A DNA stretch of 7,483 nt from Deltaproteobacteria bacterium (lineage in GTDB: Bacteria > Desulfobacterota_B > Binatia > UBA9968), in the NCBI GenBank assembly GCA_005879255.1, contig VBKY01000180.1:1-7483 (forward strand). Direction: 5' to 3'. Shown in pieces: positions 1 to 7,483 of the stretch (positions are counted from its first letter, which is position 1; every line of letters begins with the position of its first letter). The notes beneath the pieces are model-generated. The model did no database searches. It was not told where the DNA came from and was given only the letters and a program-made list of their open reading frames with translations. The translations under genes and the position numbers were made by a program.

Positions 1-113
1 AAGAATACCATACCTTCTTGATCATCTTACTTGCATCTATCTGCATCTTGATTGTCGCCTATTATTATCGCAACCAACTCTTTGATTGGCTCAAGCACCG
101 GCACAATCAATAG
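1..113 (+). CDS. C-terminal end of a membrane protein (partial)
   Basis: An open frame enters from the left edge (first full codon at base 3) and stops at the TAG at 111-113. The visible 36 residues start EYHTFLIILL, form one hydrophobic membrane segment of about 17-19 residues, and end in a short basic, aromatic tail (YYYRNQLFDWLKHRHNQ). The layout is that of a last transmembrane helix followed by a cytoplasmic tail, as in CorA-type transporters and many other integral membrane proteins. The fragment is too short to name a family. It is convergent with uppP. The 67 bases between the two stops show no clear hairpin plus T-run. Confidence 0.5.
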   Translation, partial: EYHTFLIILLASICILIVAYYYRNQLFDWLKHRHNQ

Positions 114-180
114 GATTATTCAGGCGTGACCACAGGAGAATCTGATTTTAACGAGCCCATTTTGCCGTTTTCAGTTGCTT

Positions 181-1005
181 TTAGAAGCTCAGACCCCGCG
201 TGAGATAATAGAAAACTGGGGCGACGATGATGCGGTACCAAGCGAATGGCGTAAGCTTGCCGTGCTCCAGGTACCTGACAAAGCCTTTCACAGCGATCAA
301 GGCGACGATAAAGGAAACGATAAACCCAATACCGAGCTGTAAAGAATCGTCGAAAACTAATTGATTCCTCATCTTTATGAGCTCATAACCGCTTGCCGCG
401 CATAACACCGGAACCGCAATCAAGAAAGAAAACTCCGCGGCGCTCTTTCGGTCCAAACCAAGCAGCATGCCGCCAACAATAGTCGCTGCCGCTCTTGAAG
501 TGCCGGGCCAAAGCGCGAGAACTTGAAATAGTCCGATACCGAAGGCTTGCGCGGGAGTGATCGTGTCGAGCGTGTTTGATTTTTGCCGTGATGCGAGCCG
601 CTCGACGATGAGGATCAGCACTCCCCCGATGAGCAGTGCTAGTGTCACGGCTTCAGGCGTAAATAACTTCTCTTTGATTGTGTGACGTGCCAAAAATCCA
701 ACCAATAGCGCGGGAAACGTAGCCAAGCCGATGCGCCATAGGCCAGACCAACCTGCTAACGTCGAGGCGGCGCTGGGGAATGCTCTAGGACCGTTCGGCA
801 TTAGTCCTTGGAAACGGCGCCAATAAAGAAATACCACTGAGAGAATCGCGCCCAGTTGAATCGCTACCTCAAAGCTCGAAGCCTTTTCACCAACGAAACC
901 AAGCAGATGACCGGCGATGATCAAGTGTCCGGTAGAGGAAATCGGTAAGAATTCCGTCAGACCTTCAACGATGCCCAGAACAAGCGCGATCCCCCAGCCA
1001 TTCAT
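181..1005 (-). CDS. uppP: Undecaprenyl-diphosphate phosphatase UppP (BacA family)
   Basis: This integral membrane enzyme removes a phosphate from undecaprenyl diphosphate, regenerating the undecaprenyl phosphate carrier for peptidoglycan and surface polysaccharide synthesis. The product is 274 residues, the usual length for the family. The first signature, VEGLTEFLPISSTGH, spans residues 13-27 and supplies the expected E14, E18, S24 and H27. The second, PGTSRAA at 167-173, contains S170 and R171, matching the arginine known to be essential in the E. coli enzyme. A FEVAIQLGAIL block at 45-55 is also typical. The rest is mostly hydrophobic helices. The ATG at 1003-1005 has a weak AAGG upstream and places the first motif at the normal distance from the N terminus. 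The gene lies 85 bases downstream of the glycosyltransferase on the same strand, so it may share its transcript. Confidence 0.96.
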   Translation of the reverse strand: MNGWGIALVLGIVEGLTEFLPISSTGHLIIAGHLLGFVGEKASSFEVAIQLGAILSVVFLYWRRFQGLMPNGPRAFPSAASTLAGWSGLWRIGLATFPALLVGFLARHTIKEKLFTPEAVTLALLIGGVLILIVERLASRQKSNTLDTITPAQAFGIGLFQVLALWPGTSRAAATIVGGMLLGLDRKSAAEFSFLIAVPVLCAASGYELIKMRNQLVFDDSLQLGIGFIVSFIVALIAVKGFVRYLEHGKLTPFAWYRIIVAPVFYYLTRGLSF

Positions 1006-1090
1006 GATGGTAGCCTTAATCGTTCCAGCTCAATTTGGCCGATCCTAGCGCTTTGCTGCGGCGCGGGCCGATCAAGGCTTTTTCTCGACT

Positions 1091-2785
1091 TCACGGCTTA
1101 GTCACCAGTACATATTCGTCGACAGCAGCCAACCTTCGCGGCTCCTCGCCGACATCTTTCGCCAAGCGCGACAAATTCTTTTCCTTCACGACAACCAAGA
1201 GCGGCTGTTTCATGGTTTGCCACTTTTCACGAAACTCATCGTAATCGAAAATCGCATCGCCCCAAGGAGTGATCAAATGTTTGCGTGCAGCGATCGTGTA
1301 GTAATTTCCTAAAAACGTGCGCTTCTTGTTACCATGGATGACCAGCCAAATCGGTCTCTCGGTGCGCAGATAGAACGACATTCCCGCCAGATGAGTCTCA
1401 TAAAAGACCAGTTGAGTTGACTCACGGATCTGTGGAGTGACTTTTTCCGCCACGGCTTTGGCAGAGCGATCGCTCGAGACCAGGATCACGACTTCCACGG
1501 CAAATCCTAGAAACAAGAACAGGGCGAGACCATGAACGATGTAGAGTTGCCGTTGGGTTACTAATCGACGCGAAGTCTTGCTCATGGCTAGATAAGCCAG
1601 CCCAAGCACCATGAATGCTCCATACACCCAAAGAGATTGAGACATAGCGCTAACACCGCTCCGAATTGGGTCTGGCAAAATCGTTGGGTGCATCGATCCA
1701 ACAACCAAGTGGAGTGCGATCAGGATTTGAGCAAACCAGATCAGCGACAACGCTGAGCGTGCTTTATCTGGGAGCTTCTGGTGCAGGCTCACGAGCGCCG
1801 CCGCTGTTAACATCGATAGTGCGGGAAAGATCGGCAAAATGTAATGGGGCAATTTGGATTTCGAAACAGAGAAGAAAAGAAACGGCAAGGCAACCCAAAG
1901 GATCAGAAAAAGCGTTTTGTCGTCCAGACTCTTCTTCCAATATTGTTTCGCCACAAAAGGAAGCACCAAAGTCCACGGGAAAAAACCGACCATGCCGACC
2001 AAAATAAAATAATACCAGGGTTCCGTGTGATGGAAACTTGGGTTCGTAAATCGGCCAAAGTGCTCGTCCCAAAAGTAATAACGTAGATAACCGGCATTTT
2101 GCGCGTTGGCCTGGAGATACCAAGGTAAGACAATCGCGAGAAATATGATCGCGCCGGGAACAAGATAAATTCTCCGTAGGTTCGACCACTGCTTGGTCAG
2201 CAGCAAATAAGAAAAGATAACCATTCCCGGTATGACGACTCCGACAAGACCTTTTATGAGCGTACCGGCGCCGAGAGCGACGTACATGGCCAGGCACCAC
2301 AACCGTCGTCTCCTCGCCTCGTCCGTGTGCACCGCCTCATAGAAAGCGCATAAAGCCAGCGTCACAAAAAAAGTAAGAAGCATGTCGAATATCACTATCC
2401 GGGCGAGGGTGAAAAACTCCGCGCAAGTGAGTAGAATCAGCGCGCTCCAGAGAGCCTCCCATCGCCCCCAGCGCACGTCAACGAAACGATAGACAGGAAT
2501 GAGACAAGCCAAAGCGGCCAACGCGGATGGCAAGCGCGCCGACCATTCGGACACGCCGAAAAGTTTGTACGAAAGAGCAATCAGCCAGTAAAAGGGAATC
2601 GGCTTATCGAGAACTGGATGAAAGTTTTCGTGCGGCGTGACCCAATCGTTTAGCACGAGAATTTCACGGGCCTTTTCGGAGTTTCTACCTTCGTCCGGGT
2701 CGAACAGAGCCGCACCACCCAATTGATACATCAAGACGCCAACCGCGGCGGTCCAAAATAGCCAAGGCAGCCACCGGTCTGCCAT
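1091..2785 (-). CDS. ArnT/PMT-like (GT39-type) membrane glycosyltransferase
   Basis: The product is probably a polytopic transferase that moves a sugar from a polyprenyl-phosphate donor onto an acceptor on the outer face of the inner membrane. From the ATG at 2783-2785 it has 564 residues, close to ArnT-like enzymes. A first membrane helix (about 5-27) is followed by the family's periplasmic acidic motif FDPDEGRNSEKAREIL (28-43), in which D31/E32 correspond to the catalytic DE pair. A DKPIPFYWL motif follows at 60-68, and W81-SARLPSALAAL-92 is also typical. Many helices run to about residue 435, then a soluble C-terminal domain of about 125 residues follows. The frame stays open to a TTG at 2923, but that 46-residue extension is basic and unlike the family N terminus. 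No strong ribosome site precedes 2785, so the start is only moderately sure. The acceptor cannot be read from sequence. The pairing with downstream uppP suggests undecaprenyl-linked chemistry. Confidence 0.88.
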   Translation of the reverse strand: MADRWLPWLFWTAAVGVLMYQLGGAALFDPDEGRNSEKAREILVLNDWVTPHENFHPVLDKPIPFYWLIALSYKLFGVSEWSARLPSALAALACLIPVYRFVDVRWGRWEALWSALILLTCAEFFTLARIVIFDMLLTFFVTLALCAFYEAVHTDEARRRRLWCLAMYVALGAGTLIKGLVGVVIPGMVIFSYLLLTKQWSNLRRIYLVPGAIIFLAIVLPWYLQANAQNAGYLRYYFWDEHFGRFTNPSFHHTEPWYYFILVGMVGFFPWTLVLPFVAKQYWKKSLDDKTLFLILWVALPFLFFSVSKSKLPHYILPIFPALSMLTAAALVSLHQKLPDKARSALSLIWFAQILIALHLVVGSMHPTILPDPIRSGVSAMSQSLWVYGAFMVLGLAYLAMSKTSRRLVTQRQLYIVHGLALFLFLGFAVEVVILVSSDRSAKAVAEKVTPQIRESTQLVFYETHLAGMSFYLRTERPIWLVIHGNKKRTFLGNYYTIAARKHLITPWGDAIFDYDEFREKWQTMKQPLLVVVKEKNLSRLAKDVGEEPRRLAAVDEYVLVTKP

Positions 2786-2862
2786 CCGGAACGCGGCAGT
2801 GGCCCTATCGGCGTTTTGTTGATTTAATTTCGCGCTATTGATTATCACTGAATAGCTCGCGA

Positions 2863-2879
2863 TGAACCTCAATCGTTCA
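2863..2879. promoter_or_regulatory. Operator-like perfect dyad TGAAC-N7-GTTCA
   Basis: Five bases repeat in inverted orientation around a seven-base centre. The site lies about 80 bases upstream of the chosen glycosyltransferase start and about 190 bases upstream of tatA. That is a suitable place for a dimeric regulator, but a 10-base match of this kind can arise by chance. The spacing differs from the Bacillus-type LexA box (CGAAC-N4-GTTCG), so no regulator is proposed. Confidence 0.2.
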
Positions 2880-2901
2880 CGTTTACCTGACAGCCACCGA
2901 T

Positions 2902-2930
2902 TTGCAACCCGTGAGGCAATCAATTGAAAT
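2902..2930 (+). promoter_or_regulatory. Weak candidate sigma70 promoter in the tatA leader
   Basis: TTGCAA (2902-2907) and TGAAAT (2925-2930) are 17 bases apart, each matching four of six consensus positions. If used, transcription would start near 2937 and the nested dyad at 2952-2994 would lie in the tatA leader. The candidate at 3014-3042 is closer to the gene and has a better -35. Confidence 0.17.
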
Positions 2931-2951
2931 GGCTCGCCATCGTTCGTTTCC

Positions 2952-2994
2952 GGCGTGGGCCGCGCTCTAATTGCGCAGCGCCCGGGACGACGCC
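2952..2994 (+). other. Nested GC-rich inverted repeat
   Basis: An outer stem GGCGT (2952-2956) pairs with ACGCC (2990-2994). An inner stem GCGCT (2962-2966) pairs with AGCGC (2977-2981) around a ten-base loop. Two further G-C pairs can form next to the inner stem if two cytosines bulge out. No T-run follows, so it is not a standard intrinsic terminator. It could be leader structure or chance in GC-rich DNA. Confidence 0.3.
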
Positions 2995-3013
2995 AGCTGA
3001 GGAATTTCCTACA

Positions 3014-3042
3014 TTGACTTCGCCGAGTCCGCGGCGTAGCGT
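3014..3042 (+). promoter_or_regulatory. tatA: Candidate sigma70 promoter for tatA
   Basis: TTGACT (3014-3019) matches five of six -35 positions. It is followed 17 bases later by TAGCGT (3037-3042), which keeps the three best-conserved -10 positions (T1, A2, T6). Transcription would start near 3049, just upstream of the GGGAGG ribosome site and 19 bases before the ATG. The hairpin CGCCG-N6-CGGCG (3021-3036) fills the spacer. The call rests on pattern matching only. Confidence 0.3.
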
Positions 3043-3056
3043 GATTCGTGCTCAGC

Positions 3057-3062
3057 GGGAGG
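3057..3062 (+). promoter_or_regulatory. tatA: Shine-Dalgarno site GGGAGG deciding the tatA start
   Basis: GGGAGG lies five bases before the ATG at 3068-3070. It is one of the best ribosome sites in the window and selects this ATG over the longer open frame that begins at the TTG at 2924. Confidence 0.7.
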
Positions 3063-3067
3063 TATTT

Positions 3068-3271
3068 ATGTTTGGCAGTCTTGGCGCCCCGGAGCTTCTG
3101 GTTATTTTTCTCGTTGCCTTGATCGTCTTCGGTCCGAGCAAACTTCCCGAACTCGGCAAGTCGCTTGGCGAAGCCATCAGGGGATTTAAAAAGTCCGTTG
3201 CCGACAGCGAGAAGACTCCTCTCGATGATTCTGCTTCACAGAGTAAACCAACAGACAACAAAGTGCGGTAA
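3068..3271 (+). CDS. tatA: Twin-arginine translocase subunit TatA
   Basis: TatA forms the protein-conducting element of the Tat pathway, which exports folded proteins across the cytoplasmic membrane. The 67-residue product has the expected layout: short N terminus with PEL (8-10), one membrane helix to about residue 20, the FGP hinge (21-23), an amphipathic helix with KLPELGKSLGEAIRGFKKS (25-43), and a polar acidic tail. G22 and F40 match conserved positions of the family. The acidic E9 in the helix entry is common in non-enteric TatA/TatE-type proteins. No tatB or tatC is seen in the window, so the partners must lie elsewhere. The next gene starts 36 bases downstream on the same strand. Its signal sequence lacks a twin-arginine motif, so that product is probably not a Tat substrate. 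Confidence 0.93.
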   Translation: MFGSLGAPELLVIFLVALIVFGPSKLPELGKSLGEAIRGFKKSVADSEKTPLDDSASQSKPTDNKVR

Positions 3272-3307
3272 GCTGGCCGCAGCGCACATTCAGCGAGTCT
3301 TGAAACG

Positions 3308-4543
3308 ATGACACGGTATCTCAGCATCGGCTTGAGCCTGTTGTTAGCTTTGCTTTCCGACGTGAAATCGGTTCCATCGGCACACGCGCAACAGCCGGTC
3401 GCAAGTTTCTATTATGACGAGCGCGGCAATGTGACCCGTCAAGAGCAAGATACCAACAATGACGGCAAGATGGACCGTTGGATCTATTATAATCGGCAAG
3501 GTCAGATCGAACGGGTCGAGCAGGATATCAATTTCGATGGCAAAGCCGATGTCATCGTCTACTACGAGTCGGGAAAACCGACGCGGCAGGAGATCGCGAG
3601 CAAGAACGACGGTCAGATCGATACTTGGCTCTATCTAAACGCCAGAGGTGAAATCGAACGCAAAGGCCAAGATACCGAGCACTCCGGAAAACCGACCCTT
3701 TGGGTTTACTATGAAAATGGCCAACCCTTGCGTAGCGAGGAGAACGCCAAAGCGTCGGGTGCGGCGACTCGAAAGGTTTATTACAAAGACGGTAAGATCA
3801 GCCGCGTGGAAGAAGATACCAAGGGCGATGGCAAGATCGATAGTTTTTCCTATTTCGAAAATGGCCAGCTGGTAAGAAAAGAGTTGGACCGAAAGCACGT
3901 CGGCAAGATTGATCTCTGGGGCTATTATCAAGCCGGCCGGTTAGTCAAACAGGAGGAAGATTTGCACGGCAACGGCAAAGTCGGCCGAGTCGTCTATTTT
4001 CAAGGCGACGAAGTCATACGCCGCGATGAAGACACCGCCCGGCACGGTCGCTTGGATATGATTGAGATCTTTTCCCAAGGCCGGCTCACGAAACGTCTGC
4101 GCGACGTCAAAGGAACCGGCAAGTGGGACACCGTCTTTTATTTTCAGGATAATCAACTCGTGCGCGAAGAGCGCGATACCAATGGTGATGGAATTTTCGA
4201 CTTGAGAATCCTCTACGAAAATGGTCAGATCGCCGCCCAGGAGGCCGATACAAATGGTGACCGCCGAGTTGACGTTTGGGTGAGTTTTCACAACGGTGAG
4301 CAAGTCGAACAGCTCGAGGATCAAAACTATCAGGGGAAAATCACTGCCCGGTATATTTTTAAAGGAGGCCAGGTGGTCAGTCAGGAACAACTGCCCAATG
4401 CCGACCCACCGCGGGCATCCACGCCCTTCGCACGGGTTGAAGAGGAACTCCAAAGCGTGACAAGTTATGTACCATCGATCACCAACGACAGAAGGACGGC
4501 AAGTACGCTACCAGGGATGGAGTCTGGGGCGGAAATAAAGTAA
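3308..4543 (+). CDS. Exported tandem-repeat protein, MORN-like units with calcium-loop-like motifs
   Basis: I do not recognise a named gene. The 411-residue product begins with a Sec-type signal peptide: hydrophobic core about 5-16 and likely cleavage after AHA at 25-27. From residue 35 to about 363 it is almost entirely repeats, with aromatic pairs at 35, 60, 85, 109, 134, 158, 182, 206, 230, 254, 278, 302, 326 and 350, giving a period of 24 (a few 25). The consensus is roughly YYENGQLVRxEEDTNGDGKIDxWx. The first half resembles MORN_2/YwqK-type repeats (COG2849) and the second half resembles the DxNxDGxxD loop of dockerin/EF-hand sites. Full loops are at 48-56, 73-81, 170-178 and 290-298, with a near match at 314-322. 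The tail (364-411) is polar and unrepeated. No catalytic motif or membrane anchor is seen. It lies 36 bases after tatA and 24 before a paralogous lipoprotein gene. The start has only a weak ribosome site. A structural or binding role in the periplasm or at the surface is inferred. Confidence 0.85.
   Translation: MTRYLSIGLSLLLALLSDVKSVPSAHAQQPVASFYYDERGNVTRQEQDTNNDGKMDRWIYYNRQGQIERVEQDINFDGKADVIVYYESGKPTRQEIASKNDGQIDTWLYLNARGEIERKGQDTEHSGKPTLWVYYENGQPLRSEENAKASGAATRKVYYKDGKISRVEEDTKGDGKIDSFSYFENGQLVRKELDRKHVGKIDLWGYYQAGRLVKQEEDLHGNGKVGRVVYFQGDEVIRRDEDTARHGRLDMIEIFSQGRLTKRLRDVKGTGKWDTVFYFQDNQLVREERDTNGDGIFDLRILYENGQIAAQEADTNGDRRVDVWVSFHNGEQVEQLEDQNYQGKITARYIFKGGQVVSQEQLPNADPPRASTPFARVEEELQSVTSYVPSITNDRRTASTLPGMESGAEIK
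3410..4396 (+). repeat. Array of 13 full plus one partial 72-75-base coding repeats
   Basis: The units encode 24-25 residues each, with aromatic-aromatic at the start, Gly near position 5, Arg near 9, acidic residues at 11 and 13, and a Gly/Lys/Asp cluster at 18-21. DNA copies have diverged strongly, so the array is old and held by protein-level selection rather than recent slippage. It ends in a QEQLP motif that is also found at the end of the array in the next gene. Confidence 0.85.
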
Positions 4544-4567
4544 CATCTCAACCCTTAGGTAAAGGCC

Positions 4568-5704
4568 ATGAATGGGCGATGCGGTTTCTTCTTCCTCGGG
4601 CTACTGCTCGGGATTTACGCGTGCAACGCAGTGCCGGTACAATATCCGCCAGGCTCCGCTCAGCAGTATCCCAATCCCAACGCGAGTGCTCCAACGGCGC
4701 CGCAAGCGCCTCAGATTAGCGGCTCCCAACGTTGGCAACACGCCTGGAACAAGGCGATGGAAGGCGTGGTTATGGGTGGGTCGATCGGCGGACCTTACGG
4801 CGCTGGTGGCGGCTTAGTCATTGGATTAATCGCCGGCTTGATTACCGCCGATTCACATTACGGTGAGCTCAATCGACAGATTCATTCGGAACAGCAGAAG
4901 GATCAGCAACTCGAAGCCGCCATCGAACAAGAATTGGCGAGACAGCGAGATCTAGAAAATCAAATCGCTAGCGCGACCGCCACGTCTACCACGACGCAAC
5001 CCCAGGTCCAACCAGCCGTCAGCGCTAAGCCGACTGAACGAGCATTGCCTGGTGGCATACCTCAACCGACCAAACCGCCGGAAAACGTGACTCTGTCATC
5101 TCTGGGTAAGTCAGCACCACCGCCGTCCCCTCCCAGTCCCTTCAAGAACGTCGAAGTGAAGGACATAAACGGCGACGGCGTACCGGACCTCTGGATCTAT
5201 TACAACCCGCTGAAGCCGGGTGAAATCATGCGCCAGGAAGAATCGACGAAGGGCGACGGCCGAGTCGACACGTGGAGCTATTTCAAAGATGGCCGGCTGA
5301 TACGCCGCGACGTTGATTCGAAAGGAGCTGGCCGGCCGGATACAATCTTCTACTACGATAACGACACGATCGTGCGTGAGGAGCGCGATGAATTCGGCCA
5401 AGGACAAATGACCTATCGCGCGAACTATCAAAATGGCCGGCTTGCGAGAGTTGAAAAAGATACCAGAAATAATGGACGGCCGGATCTGTGGATCTATTAT
5501 GATGCCACGAGAGACGGCGAAATCGTCATGAAAGAGGAACGCGACCTTAACGGTGATGGCATCATCGATTTATGGTCCTATTACGACAACGGCCGTCTGA
5601 CGCGGCGCGATGTCAGCGCCGCCGGCCTGGAAATACTCTCCAAACAAGAACAGCTCCCTGCTCCATCCGCCGAAATCATTCGAACGTCAAATCCGGGCAG
5701 CTGA
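4568..5704 (+). CDS. Predicted lipoprotein: glycine zipper, coiled coil and C-terminal calcium-loop-like repeats
   Basis: I do not recognise a named gene. The 378-residue product starts with a short hydrophobic signal ending IYAC, so C19 is a likely lipidation site (the Tyr at -2 makes the lipobox slightly unusual). A Pro/Ala/Gln-rich spacer follows. Then comes an exact glycine zipper with G66, 70, 74, 78, 82, 86 and 90, a Glu/Gln-rich probable coiled coil (about 98-134), and a Pro/Thr-rich linker (136-192). From 199 come six repeats like those of the preceding gene, with aromatic pairs at 211, 238, 262, 286, 310 and 338. DINGDGVPD (199-207) and DLNGDGIID (326-334) are full DxNxDGxxD loops. 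The first and fifth units carry a 3-4 residue insert (YNPLKPGE, YDATRDGE). The domain order suggests a membrane-anchored protein with an exposed repeat domain. A glycine zipper also occurs in SlyB-like outer-membrane lipoproteins. The ATG at 4568 has AGG eight bases upstream. The gene sits in one run with the TonB-like gene, whose ATG starts one base after this stop. Confidence 0.85.
   Translation: MNGRCGFFFLGLLLGIYACNAVPVQYPPGSAQQYPNPNASAPTAPQAPQISGSQRWQHAWNKAMEGVVMGGSIGGPYGAGGGLVIGLIAGLITADSHYGELNRQIHSEQQKDQQLEAAIEQELARQRDLENQIASATATSTTTQPQVQPAVSAKPTERALPGGIPQPTKPPENVTLSSLGKSAPPPSPPSPFKNVEVKDINGDGVPDLWIYYNPLKPGEIMRQEESTKGDGRVDTWSYFKDGRLIRRDVDSKGAGRPDTIFYYDNDTIVREERDEFGQGQMTYRANYQNGRLARVEKDTRNNGRPDLWIYYDATRDGEIVMKEERDLNGDGIIDLWSYYDNGRLTRRDVSAAGLEILSKQEQLPAPSAEIIRTSNPGS
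4763..4837 (+). other. Glycine-zipper segment of the lipoprotein (residues 66-90)
   Basis: Seven glycines fall at exact four-residue spacing (66, 70, 74, 78, 82, 86, 90), with hydrophobic residues between them and no charge after E65. Such GxxxG runs pack helices tightly in membranes or drive oligomer formation. The segment is long enough to span or insert in a membrane. Confidence 0.7.
5162..5617 (+). repeat. Six-unit repeat array homologous to the upstream gene's array
   Basis: Units are 24-28 residues long and carry the same DxNxDGxxD-LWxYYxNGRLxRRD pattern as the upstream gene. The two genes are therefore paralogous in this domain. The array is soon followed by QEQLP (5645-5659), matching the end of the upstream array. 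Confidence 0.8.
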
Positions 5705-5705
5705 A

Positions 5706-6734
5706 ATGATTTACCAAACCTCTGCTGACTGGCGCGAACTGGAAATTTTCTCTCTGCTGCGCAGTCCATTTTTGTTTTCGTCCGTGCTTTTCCATGGATT
5801 GCTTTTTTTGCTGGCGTTGAAGTTGGCGGCGCTTGCCGTTATTCCGAAGCCGGAACTGAATACGCCAATTTCGGTGCAGCTTCTAGATGTAAGAGACGGC
5901 GGCTCTGCCAACAAAAGTATCGGGCCGGGCGAGGGTCCCGGCGGGCCTCGCACAATGCCAAAGTTGGGGACGCCGGTACGGCCGGCCCAACAAACCGGTA
6001 AGTTAGACAGCGGTTCGATCGAAAGCTCGGTTGCCAGCAACAACCCGGTTGAAACGGCGCCGCCAGCCAATCCGATTACGCTACCAGGACCGAAAATCTT
6101 GGCTGCAAACACGCGTGAGTCGGTAAACGTGAAAGAAACTTCACCCGATTCCTTGGTTCGTCTGCCGACGAAGGAAAGCCCGACAAATCTTCCCGGTAGC
6201 GCCGTTGCCGACTTGGAAGCCAATCAACGAAGTCTCGCCGCACTCAAGGGCGCCGGCGAAGGTCCGGGAATTAAAGCGCTCAAGGAGGGCGCGCAGATTC
6301 CGGGAGCTCTCAAAGGAACCGGTACGGGTAGCGGTCCCTCCGGCGTTCCCGGCGGAAGTAGCAGCGGTACGGGAGTGGCCGGAGGCGGCACAGGAACCGG
6401 CACTGGCGGCGGCAGCCTGACGGGACTCAAAGGGATGCCGAGCGCCGACTACAGCCAGTATCTCAATCAGCTTAAGAAGCGTGTTGAGTCCGTCTGGAAA
6501 TTTCCCGACAACGTTAGCGGAGTACAAAAAGTCGCCATTCGCTTTGCCCTCGATCGCGCCGGCAAATTGACGCTCGCTGAAGTGTTAGAGACTTCCGATT
6601 CACGGCTTAACCTCAGCGCGTTAGAAGCAATGCGGCGGGCGTCACCCTTCCCAGCGATTCCAGAAAGCTTGAAAGATCTCGCCAACGAGCCTTTGATTAT
6701 GCGCTTTGAAGTCGCGATTCGCGTGCGCAGTTGA
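5706..6734 (+). CDS. TonB-like energy transducer (TonB/TolA C-terminal domain)
   Basis: TonB-type proteins span the inner membrane, take energy from an ExbB/ExbD (or TolQ/TolR) proton channel and pass it to the outer membrane. From the ATG at 5706 the product is 342 residues. It has a short cytoplasmic N terminus and one membrane helix (about 21-46) with S26-xxx-H30-G, the same S-xxx-H spacing as the functional Ser/His of TonB and TolA. A long Pro/Gly/Ser-rich periplasmic linker includes a Gly-Thr-rich stretch (202-243). The C-terminal domain (about 246-340) has YLNQLKKRVESVWKFP, then VAIRFALDRAGKLTLAEVLETS and ALEAMRRASPFPAIP, as in the TonB C-terminal family. The frame is open from an ATG at 5610, but that start would overlap the lipoprotein gene by 95 bases. 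The 5706 start gives a normal N terminus and a TGA-A-ATG junction that suggests translational coupling. Whether it works as TonB or TolA cannot be decided. No Pal or TolB gene is visible. Confidence 0.88.
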   Translation: MIYQTSADWRELEIFSLLRSPFLFSSVLFHGLLFLLALKLAALAVIPKPELNTPISVQLLDVRDGGSANKSIGPGEGPGGPRTMPKLGTPVRPAQQTGKLDSGSIESSVASNNPVETAPPANPITLPGPKILAANTRESVNVKETSPDSLVRLPTKESPTNLPGSAVADLEANQRSLAALKGAGEGPGIKALKEGAQIPGALKGTGTGSGPSGVPGGSSSGTGVAGGGTGTGTGGGSLTGLKGMPSADYSQYLNQLKKRVESVWKFPDNVSGVQKVAIRFALDRAGKLTLAEVLETSDSRLNLSALEAMRRASPFPAIPESLKDLANEPLIMRFEVAIRVRS

Positions 6735-6775
6735 GCCCGCGCCCAAATCTGCTTTAATTCACTTCGGCCGTTTCA

Positions 6776-6803
6776 TTGATTAAATTTCCCTTTCAGGTAA
6801 TCT
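6776..6803 (+). promoter_or_regulatory. Weak candidate promoter before the ExbB/TolQ-type gene
   Basis: TTGATT (6776-6781) and TAATCT (6798-6803) are 16 bases apart, each with about four of six consensus matches. The 97-base gap after the TonB-like gene is the longest in the run, so an internal promoter here is reasonable. No hairpin with a T-run is seen in the gap, so read-through from upstream is equally possible. Confidence 0.2.
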
Positions 6804-6831
6804 TCGTCGGAGCGAGCCGGAAGGATTCATC

Positions 6832-7455
6832 ATGCAGCCACAAGGTCTGGATCTTATTGACATCATTCACAAAGGCGCCATCGCCACCTATCCGCTGATT
6901 CTTTTGTCGATCGTCAGTGTGGCCGTTGTATTTGAGCGGCTCTGGTCGCTCAGAAACATCGGTTCGGCGACCTTGAGAGTTACCGAATCGATACTGGAAC
7001 CGATCAAAAAAGGCCAACGGGACCTGGCGATTGCCATTTGCAAGCAGAACTCTCAATGTCCGGCGGGCAGAATCTTCCTTAATATTTTGGACCGAGAAGC
7101 CGCCGGGTTGGAAGGTGCCAATAACATCGCCACGGAAGCGATGTTCGAAGAAACTCAAAAACTAAAAAAACATCTCTGGATCCTCGGCACGGTCGCCAGC
7201 AGCGCTCCATTTATTGGTCTGTTAGGAACGGTCGTAGGCATCATCAAGTCCTTTGAGAGCATGGCGATCGCCGGCACCGGCGGTTTCGCCGTCGTCGCTG
7301 CCGGCATATCGGAGGCGTTGGTGGCAACGGCACTGGGCCTGGGAATCGCTATCATTGCAGTGATGTTCTACAATTATTTTCAAACTCGAATCTCCACGCT
7401 TAACGGCTTGTTTCGCATTCAAGTCGGCAAAGTTTTGCACAGCATGGGCGCCTGA
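6832..7455 (+). CDS. MotA/TolQ/ExbB-family proton channel subunit
   Basis: This inner-membrane protein forms, with an ExbD/TolR partner, a channel that uses proton flow to drive a TonB- or TolA-type transducer. The product is 207 residues, slightly shorter than E. coli ExbB or TolQ. An N-terminal helix (about 18-36, ending FERLW) precedes a cytoplasmic region. The family core follows: LWILGTVASSAPFIGLLGTVVGI (115-137) and AGISEALVATALGLGIAIIAVMFYNYF (157-183). T133 and T166 sit at the two conserved pore threonine positions. The ATG at 6832 has AAGGA six bases upstream. The next gene starts nine bases after this stop and looks like ExbD/TolR. Position after a TonB-like gene favours an ExbB role, but TolQ is not excluded. 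Confidence 0.92.
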   Translation: MQPQGLDLIDIIHKGAIATYPLILLSIVSVAVVFERLWSLRNIGSATLRVTESILEPIKKGQRDLAIAICKQNSQCPAGRIFLNILDREAAGLEGANNIATEAMFEETQKLKKHLWILGTVASSAPFIGLLGTVVGIIKSFESMAIAGTGGFAVVAAGISEALVATALGLGIAIIAVMFYNYFQTRISTLNGLFRIQVGKVLHSMGA

Positions 7456-7464
7456 GGTAATTCC

Positions 7465-7483
7465 ATGGCTATGACCCCGCTCG
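7465..7483 (+). CDS. Start of a probable ExbD/TolR biopolymer transport protein (partial)
   Basis: An ATG at 7465-7467 follows a strong GAGG ribosome site (7454-7457) with seven bases between. Only MAMTPL is readable before the window ends. This N terminus and the position directly after an ExbB/TolQ-type gene fit ExbD/TolR. The identity rests mainly on gene order, since no domain is visible. Confidence 0.6.

Follow-up and report, generated by a model that had tools for sequence, protein, structure and literature searches.

A protein of predicted 24-residue hairpin repeats encoded alongside TonB–ExbB–ExbD-type genes in Binatia-like bacteria

The locus and its two repeat proteins

The window analysed here is the whole 7,483-nucleotide stretch of contig VBKY01000180.1 (positions 1 to 7,483, forward strand) from a Deltaproteobacteria bacterium assembly assigned to the class Binatia (GCA_005879255.1), and our subject is a pair of repeat proteins, P1 and P2, that it encodes. 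Its plus strand carries, in order, genes for TatA, P1, P2, a TonB/TolA-like protein and an ExbB/TolQ-like protein, followed by the start of an ExbD/TolR-like gene (Table 1), whilst UppP and an ArnT-like transferase are encoded on the minus strand. P1 is a hairpin-repeat protein variant that is newly tied here to TonB–ExbBD operons, and this TonB/ExbB gene context is the best clue to its function.

The sequence-only reading of the window had described 13 full units and one partial unit with a 24-residue period, spanning positions 3410–4396. Both the count and the span were correct: a unit profile places the units at 3407–4390, and P1 self-identity at a lag of 24 residues (0.257 over residues 33–363) is about twice the highest value reached in 2000 shuffles (0.129, the maximum over lags 10 to 60). 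The repeat is real and far above chance, even though unit 4, the weakest in the profile scan, scores only 1.3 bits. The profile was built from 706 gap-free units drawn from the window proteins and their homologues and leans towards the P2 type, as many of these units come from P2 homologues. The consensus unit comprises a strand half (WxYYxNGxLVRxE) and a D-rich loop half, with glycine at unit position 21 in 97% of the 706 units. No tandem repeat was detected at the DNA level, and the array therefore looks old; an origin by recent tandem duplication was rejected.

The same 24-residue unit is found by the profile in P2, where lag-24 identity reaches 0.184 and 2000 shuffles give at most 0.179. 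Full Dx[DN]xDG motifs occupy two of its six loops in the window. Cys 19 of P2 stands in a lipobox-like position, and a rough lipobox pattern is found in 16 of 20 P2-type proteins, counting the window with the loci, as well as in 124 of the 149 homologues 340–400 amino acids long. Close homologues include P0074 and P0155 from Candidatus Binatia (63 and 67% identity) and P0138 from Candidatus Limnocylindrales (TPA; 67%).

Table 1. Positions of the features discussed, numbered from the first letter of the window
Feature	Position	Strand	Basis or remark
P1, repeat protein predicted to be exported, 411 aa	3308..4543	+	ORF, repeat profile, fold model
P1 signal-like N-terminus to about residue 27 (AHA)	3308-3388	+	judged by eye
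P1 array, 13 units of 24 residues and one partial, residues 34-361	3407..4390	+	unit profile, model hairpins
P1 loop 1, DTNNDGKMD, full Dx[DN]xDG	3449..3475	+	retained in 21/22 aligned rows
P1 loop 2, DINFDGKAD, full Dx[DN]xDG	3524..3550	+	retained in 21/22
P1 loop 6, DTKGDGKID, K at position 3	3815..3841	+	full motif in 19/22 relatives' rows
P1 loop 11, DTNGDGIFD, full Dx[DN]xDG	4175..4201	+	retained in 19/23
P1 loop 12, DTNGDRRVD, acidic residues retained	4247..4273	+	full motif in 0/23; position 6 is R in 21, H in 2
P2, probable lipoprotein, 378 aa	4568..5704	+	Cys 19 at 4622-4624; predicted helices at 52-70 and 78-137 precede the repeat hairpins
P2 repeat array, residues 197-349	5156..5614	+	unit profile
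P2 full-motif loop, first	5162-5188	+	
P2 full-motif loop, last	5543-5569	+	
TonB/TolA-like protein, 343 aa	5706..6734	+	SxxxH in N-terminal helix (S26, H30), TonB_2 C-domain
ExbB/TolQ-like proton-channel protein, 207 aa	6832..7455	+	PF01618, 107.9 bits
ExbD/TolR-like gene start (putative), cut by window end	7465..7483	+	MAMTPL resembles MAMTPIGG of the L062 frame

For ExbD/TolR-like frames of this kind, the PF02472 match was checked in loci L072 and L075. The TatA gene (3068–3271) lies directly upstream of P1, an arrangement also seen in L001, L062, L063, L067 and L072.

Predicted fold and metal-type loops

An AlphaFold2 model of P1, with 281 of 411 residues at a pLDDT of 90 or more, comprises consecutive hairpins. 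Each 24-residue unit is thus predicted to form one beta hairpin and the array a long single-layer sheet, resembling those of OspA and the MORN proteins, in support of the extended beta fold proposed earlier. The unit itself had been read as a MORN-like half fused to an EF-hand- or dockerin-like calcium loop. A MORN_2-like half linked to a Dx[DN]xDG-type loop is indeed present, but the EF-hand and dockerin identities are rejected because the model sets the loops between strands and has no helix between residues 30 and 365; neither family is listed for P1 or P2 in Pfam at E values up to 1.

P1 shares with MORN and MORN_2 (YwqK/COG2849) proteins a hairpin of 23–24 residues, a Y..NG strand half and, as predicted, a single-layer sheet, but differs in carrying the acidic loop half and in falling just short of the Pfam MORN_2 cut-off (PF07661; E 9e-7, 28.8 bits against 29.6). 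FG-GAP (PF01839) likewise remains below its cut-off of 22.1 bits (P1 12.9, P2 12.4). The best NCBIfam match is Lsa25.6 (NF050087; E 9e-19), an equivalog family for a Leptospira protein. Part of its profile matches within the repeats of P1 (67.8 bits) and P2 (46 bits), both below the cut-off of 150, and it found no match at the family cut-off in 297 genomes. No family in either library reaches its cut-off on P1, in keeping with the view that the composite unit has no standard family name. Amongst the relatives, P0030, P0115 and P0055 score above the cut-off for DUF6802 or FG-GAP and others below. Searching PDB sequences with P1 gave no match at E values up to 10, OspA of Borrelia included; OspA is not known to have metal-type loops. 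The lowest Foldseek E values (5e-11) belong to Rhs/YD-repeat shells and teneurins, but TM-scores of 0.12–0.19 and rmsd values mostly above 30 suggest no more than a local likeness of hairpins.

The earlier reading also placed a DxNxDGxxD-type loop in every unit of a fold that calcium could stiffen. The motif count supports neither such a loop nor calcium at each unit: the full Dx[DN]xDG is present in only three of the 13 P1 loops in the window (1, 2 and 11). Loop 12 has R instead of Gly, loop 6 has K at position 3 and the remaining loops are degenerate further, so calcium binding by every loop is rejected. The loss is at fixed positions. Across 23 aligned P1-type sequences (fewer rows at some loops), loops 1, 2, 6 and 11 keep the motif in most rows (Table 1), loops 4, 5, 8 and 13 in some (6/18, 3/18, 8/23 and 1/23) and loops 3, 7, 9, 10 and 12 in none. 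Position 3 is Lys in 21 of 22 rows at loop 3, 22 of 23 at loop 7 and 20 of 23 at loop 10.

In the longer form Dx[DN]xDGxx[DE], the motif occupies 210 of the 294 loops in long relatives (17 proteins), 48 of the 59 in middle-length relatives (eight proteins) and 37 of the 44 in short relatives (ten proteins), compared with 86 of 234 in P1-type (19 proteins) and 51 of 118 in P2-type proteins (20 proteins). Metal-type loops are therefore widespread in the family, whereas P1 and P2 have fewer of them. N or D at position 3 occurs together with D at position 5 in 483 of 749 loops; K or R is found at position 3 in 125, of which 36 have D at position 5. We would guess from these residue patterns that a Lys amine may stand in for the metal in some loops. 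Passages of PMC3123361 describe Dx[DN]xDG calcium loops in strand-loop-strand contexts also, the motif lying between two strands as in P1. The P1 loops differ in recurring once in each predicted hairpin along the array, with the motif missing at set positions, and they are metal-type by motif.

Gene linkage in Binatia-like bacteria and the wider group

A single-protein search of genome contigs gave four loci. With a P2 profile, 37 of 148 genomes in the class of genome G001 were matched: 20 encode a full-length P2, one a fragment (G410) and 16 give a weaker match in a short ORF. In the 20 P2 loci (L001, L062–L069 and L071–L081), P1 adjoins P2 in all 19 with room for it (L066 ends first), an ExbB/TolQ-like gene is present in all 19 with room (L001 ends first) and a TonB-like ORF, whole or in part, in 19 of the 20, being split in L065 and partial in L076; in L081 none was called separately from the 647-aa P2 ORF. 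In L067 and L075–L077 the order is altered but the gene set is still together: the TonB-like gene lies upstream and the ExbB/TolQ-like gene is a 30–32% match on the opposite strand (Pfam-checked in L075). A convergent gene for a protein with VWA and glucodextranase-B domains follows the ExbD-like gene in L062 (10481–11740), and ORFs likened to it by size and place are seen in several other Binatia-like loci. Ten further loci (L082–L091) encode short repeat proteins (about 150–220 aa, 4–6 units), probably lipoproteins, not adjoining exbB.

Linkage extends beyond this group. The gene-order survey covered the phylum of G001, where 28 of 297 genomes were matched; hits in, for example, the Myxococcota (P0089-type, P0115) fall outside it. 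Of the 31 listed places of neither the P1–P2 nor the short Binatia type, 30 were analysed (L092–L121), beginning with ten strong matches, and 29 are testable, L104 ending at the repeat gene. The next recognised same-strand downstream gene is exbB in 23 of the 29 (L092–L103, L105–L110, L112, L114, L115, L117 and L121), or in 22 if strict adjacency is required, since in L109 a 130-aa ORF intervenes and the ExbB match is partial. Amongst testable loci with more than six units, linkage is found in 19 of 19. ExbD was called in 20 of the 23 linked loci and TonB in 18, with several others reaching the contig end. As ExbB-type genes occur at about 1.3 per Mb (106 matches in about 81 Mb from 25 genomes), chance adjacency would be well under 1%. 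In L108 (3995–7305; G136), two close same-strand repeat ORFs lie upstream of exbB and are perhaps one gene split by assembly.

Receptor genes were found in 16 of the 23 linked stretches by BLAST against the receptors of L093, L094 and L101, an assignment backed by Pfam in L093, L098 and L101 and by NCBIfam, below cut-off, in L100, L107 and L112. The closest receptor models, all below cut-off, are FCYXU-type (L093), vitamin B12-like (L100), siderophore-like (L107) and haem-like (L112). Because these models vary and the repeat–ExbB core is constant, we assign the repeat protein to the machine and not to one substrate. The L093 receptor (10351–12540) aligns from end to end with the NCBIfam model ‘TonB-dependent receptor, FCYXU motif-type’ at 734.5 bits against a cut-off of 825; a Desulfosarcina TonB-dependent receptor appears amongst predicted new selenoproteins in a portion of PMC12013277. 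Tetrapyrrole methylase and DUF4198 genes lie near some repeat–ExbB–ExbD–TonB operons (L093 12574–15001, L100 1339–2148, L092 9392–11197), hinting at corrinoid or metal uptake.

The SxxxH motif near the N-terminal helix is typical of TonB. Counted as a short pattern without a chance control, it is present in every TonB ORF tested, 18 from the wider loci (L116 among them) and 17 from the Binatia-like loci, and in the TonB-like protein of the window. The neighbours of P1 and P2 thus resemble those of TonB–ExbB–ExbD systems in comprising a TonB-like protein with an SxxxH helix, an ExbB-like and an ExbD-like protein; what sets these loci apart is an additional repeat protein, predicted to be exported, encoded alongside and found with tonB/exbB/exbD in the window, in the 20 Binatia-like loci and, with exbB next, in 23 of the 29 wider ones. 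No report of a repeat protein tied to TonB–ExbBD operons was found in a literature search that left most subscription journals and all bioRxiv preprints outside its reach; the passages of PMC1664576 concerned mention MORN, ExbB and TonB apart, in tables.

A candidate periplasmic rod and the alternatives

Since the P1 gene adjoins the genes of proton-driven, outer-membrane-reaching machines, P1 may be an unrecognised part of them. The reading that we favour, with belief and doubt about equally balanced, is that P1 is a metal-stapled periplasmic rod that, together with P2, serves a TonB–ExbBD-type machine. P1 would be exported and form an elongated single-layer beta-sheet rod with one hairpin per unit, of about 13 nm by arithmetic (28 strands at 0.48 nm). 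Dx[DN]xDG-type loops would connect adjacent hairpins and staple them via a divalent cation, most likely Ca2+, at the conserved loops 1, 2, 6 and 11, the other loops having become metal-free. The probable lipoprotein P2, with its shorter array, would act together with P1 in the periplasm, the two giving structural support to the downstream-encoded TonB/TolA-like protein and ExbB/ExbD-type proton motor. P1 would probably serve the energy transducer as a rigid intermembrane spacer or guide.

One homologue bears on this proposal. P0319 (metagenomic, 248 aa) has SLVAH in an N-terminal helix, five units at residues 38–155 and then a TonB_C match (E 1e-8), and is alone among 332 homologues in having a TonB match (own profile). 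The long types with 17–21 units would give rods of about 16–20 nm by the same arithmetic, close to the width of the periplasm. More tentatively still, and we would sooner bet against it, the whole repeat family could be an unrecognised structural class of TonB-type transduction, a metal-stapled, near-periplasm-spanning rod beside the TonB linker or, in P0319, replacing it, with Ca2+ setting stiffness or reach; P1–P2 would be the Binatia version, stapled only at chosen places, with some others perhaps held by Lys. How TonB and TolA transfer force across the periplasm is still debated, and a conserved extra protein encoded with the motor and predicted to be a rod would offer a new handle on this question. 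The finding also bears on a repeat family whose members currently go by ‘antitoxin YwqK’ or ‘hypothetical’, and the place-specific loss of metal loops provides a natural series on calcium stiffening of a single-layer sheet.

Several points weigh against the rod. It is a prediction from sequence, models and gene order, in which metal, contact and location are inferred or predicted only, and just three of 13 P1 loops in the window have the motif. No ExbB, ExbD or TonB match accompanies the second P1-like gene of G419 (L070) or any of the ten short-type loci. Six of the 29 wider loci, each with six or fewer recognised units, lack an adjacent exbB (L111, L113, L116, L118, L119 and L120): in L111 a 98-aa TonB-like ORF is next and the 5.4-kb contig has no ExbB, in L116 exbB is about 3 kb away and L120 encodes a plain MORN_2 protein. 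Annotation of the Binatia-like stretches, whose ORFs were not compared with receptor references, brought no TonB-dependent receptor gene to light. P0319 is suggestive, a single case among 332 on a 1012-base contig that cuts the protein end.

An unlikely alternative is that the repeat protein has no mechanical function and is a periplasmic ligand or cation store, its loops capturing or buffering a transported metal (Ca2+, Ni2+, Co2+ or a lanthanide) or chelate. The serial acidic loops, full in 210 of 294 cases in long relatives, would suit such a store, as would the tetrapyrrole methylase neighbours (L093 by Pfam, L092 by NCBIfam) and DUF4198 neighbours (L093 and L100 by Pfam). This alternative, the only one within which we retain a lanthanide role, also draws on a weak profile match to lanmodulin (E 0.0036) and on XoxF in some Binatota genomes, as noted in part of PMC8262859. 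The lanmodulin match, however, is gapped and confined to the EF-hand loop, the motif is lost in most P1 loops, and the adjoining receptors differ from locus to locus whilst the repeat–ExbB core is constant.

We give similarly little weight to the idea that, instead of serving an uptake-type TonB system, P1 and P2 replace TolB or Pal in an envelope-integrity machine of the Tol-Pal type. In its favour, the window ExbB-like protein scores higher on the NCBIfam tolQ model (108.6 bits) than on exbB (77.6), both below cut-off, P2 is a predicted lipoprotein and receptor genes go unrecognised in the Binatia-like loci. TolB_N, however, is located elsewhere in 18 of the 20 Binatia-like genomes, so a separate Tol-Pal set probably exists and, judged by TolB_N, a canonical Tol-Pal cluster is unlikely here; in the wider group, 16 of 23 loci have receptor genes beside the module.

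That the protein is a surface adhesin or surface sheet protein akin to OspA or Lsa25.6, or else an immunity protein of the YwqK type, with functionally meaningless neighbours, is very improbable: the Lsa25.6 match and the predicted OspA-like sheet are met by a score far below cut-off (67.8 against 150 bits) and a conserved TonB/ExbB neighbourhood, whilst the name ‘antitoxin component YwqK’ on some homologues is a source label only, and no toxin gene was recognised among the seven window proteins scanned (Pfam, NCBIfam), neighbours elsewhere being annotated in part. Lsa25.6 itself is reported, in sections of PMC7662565, as a binder of laminin, plasminogen and fibrinogen. Elsewhere in the family the repeat unit is found in other protein contexts: P0257 combines it with a PpiC-type rotamase domain in one chain, and in P0312 and P0282 it is located after a DUF2007 domain.
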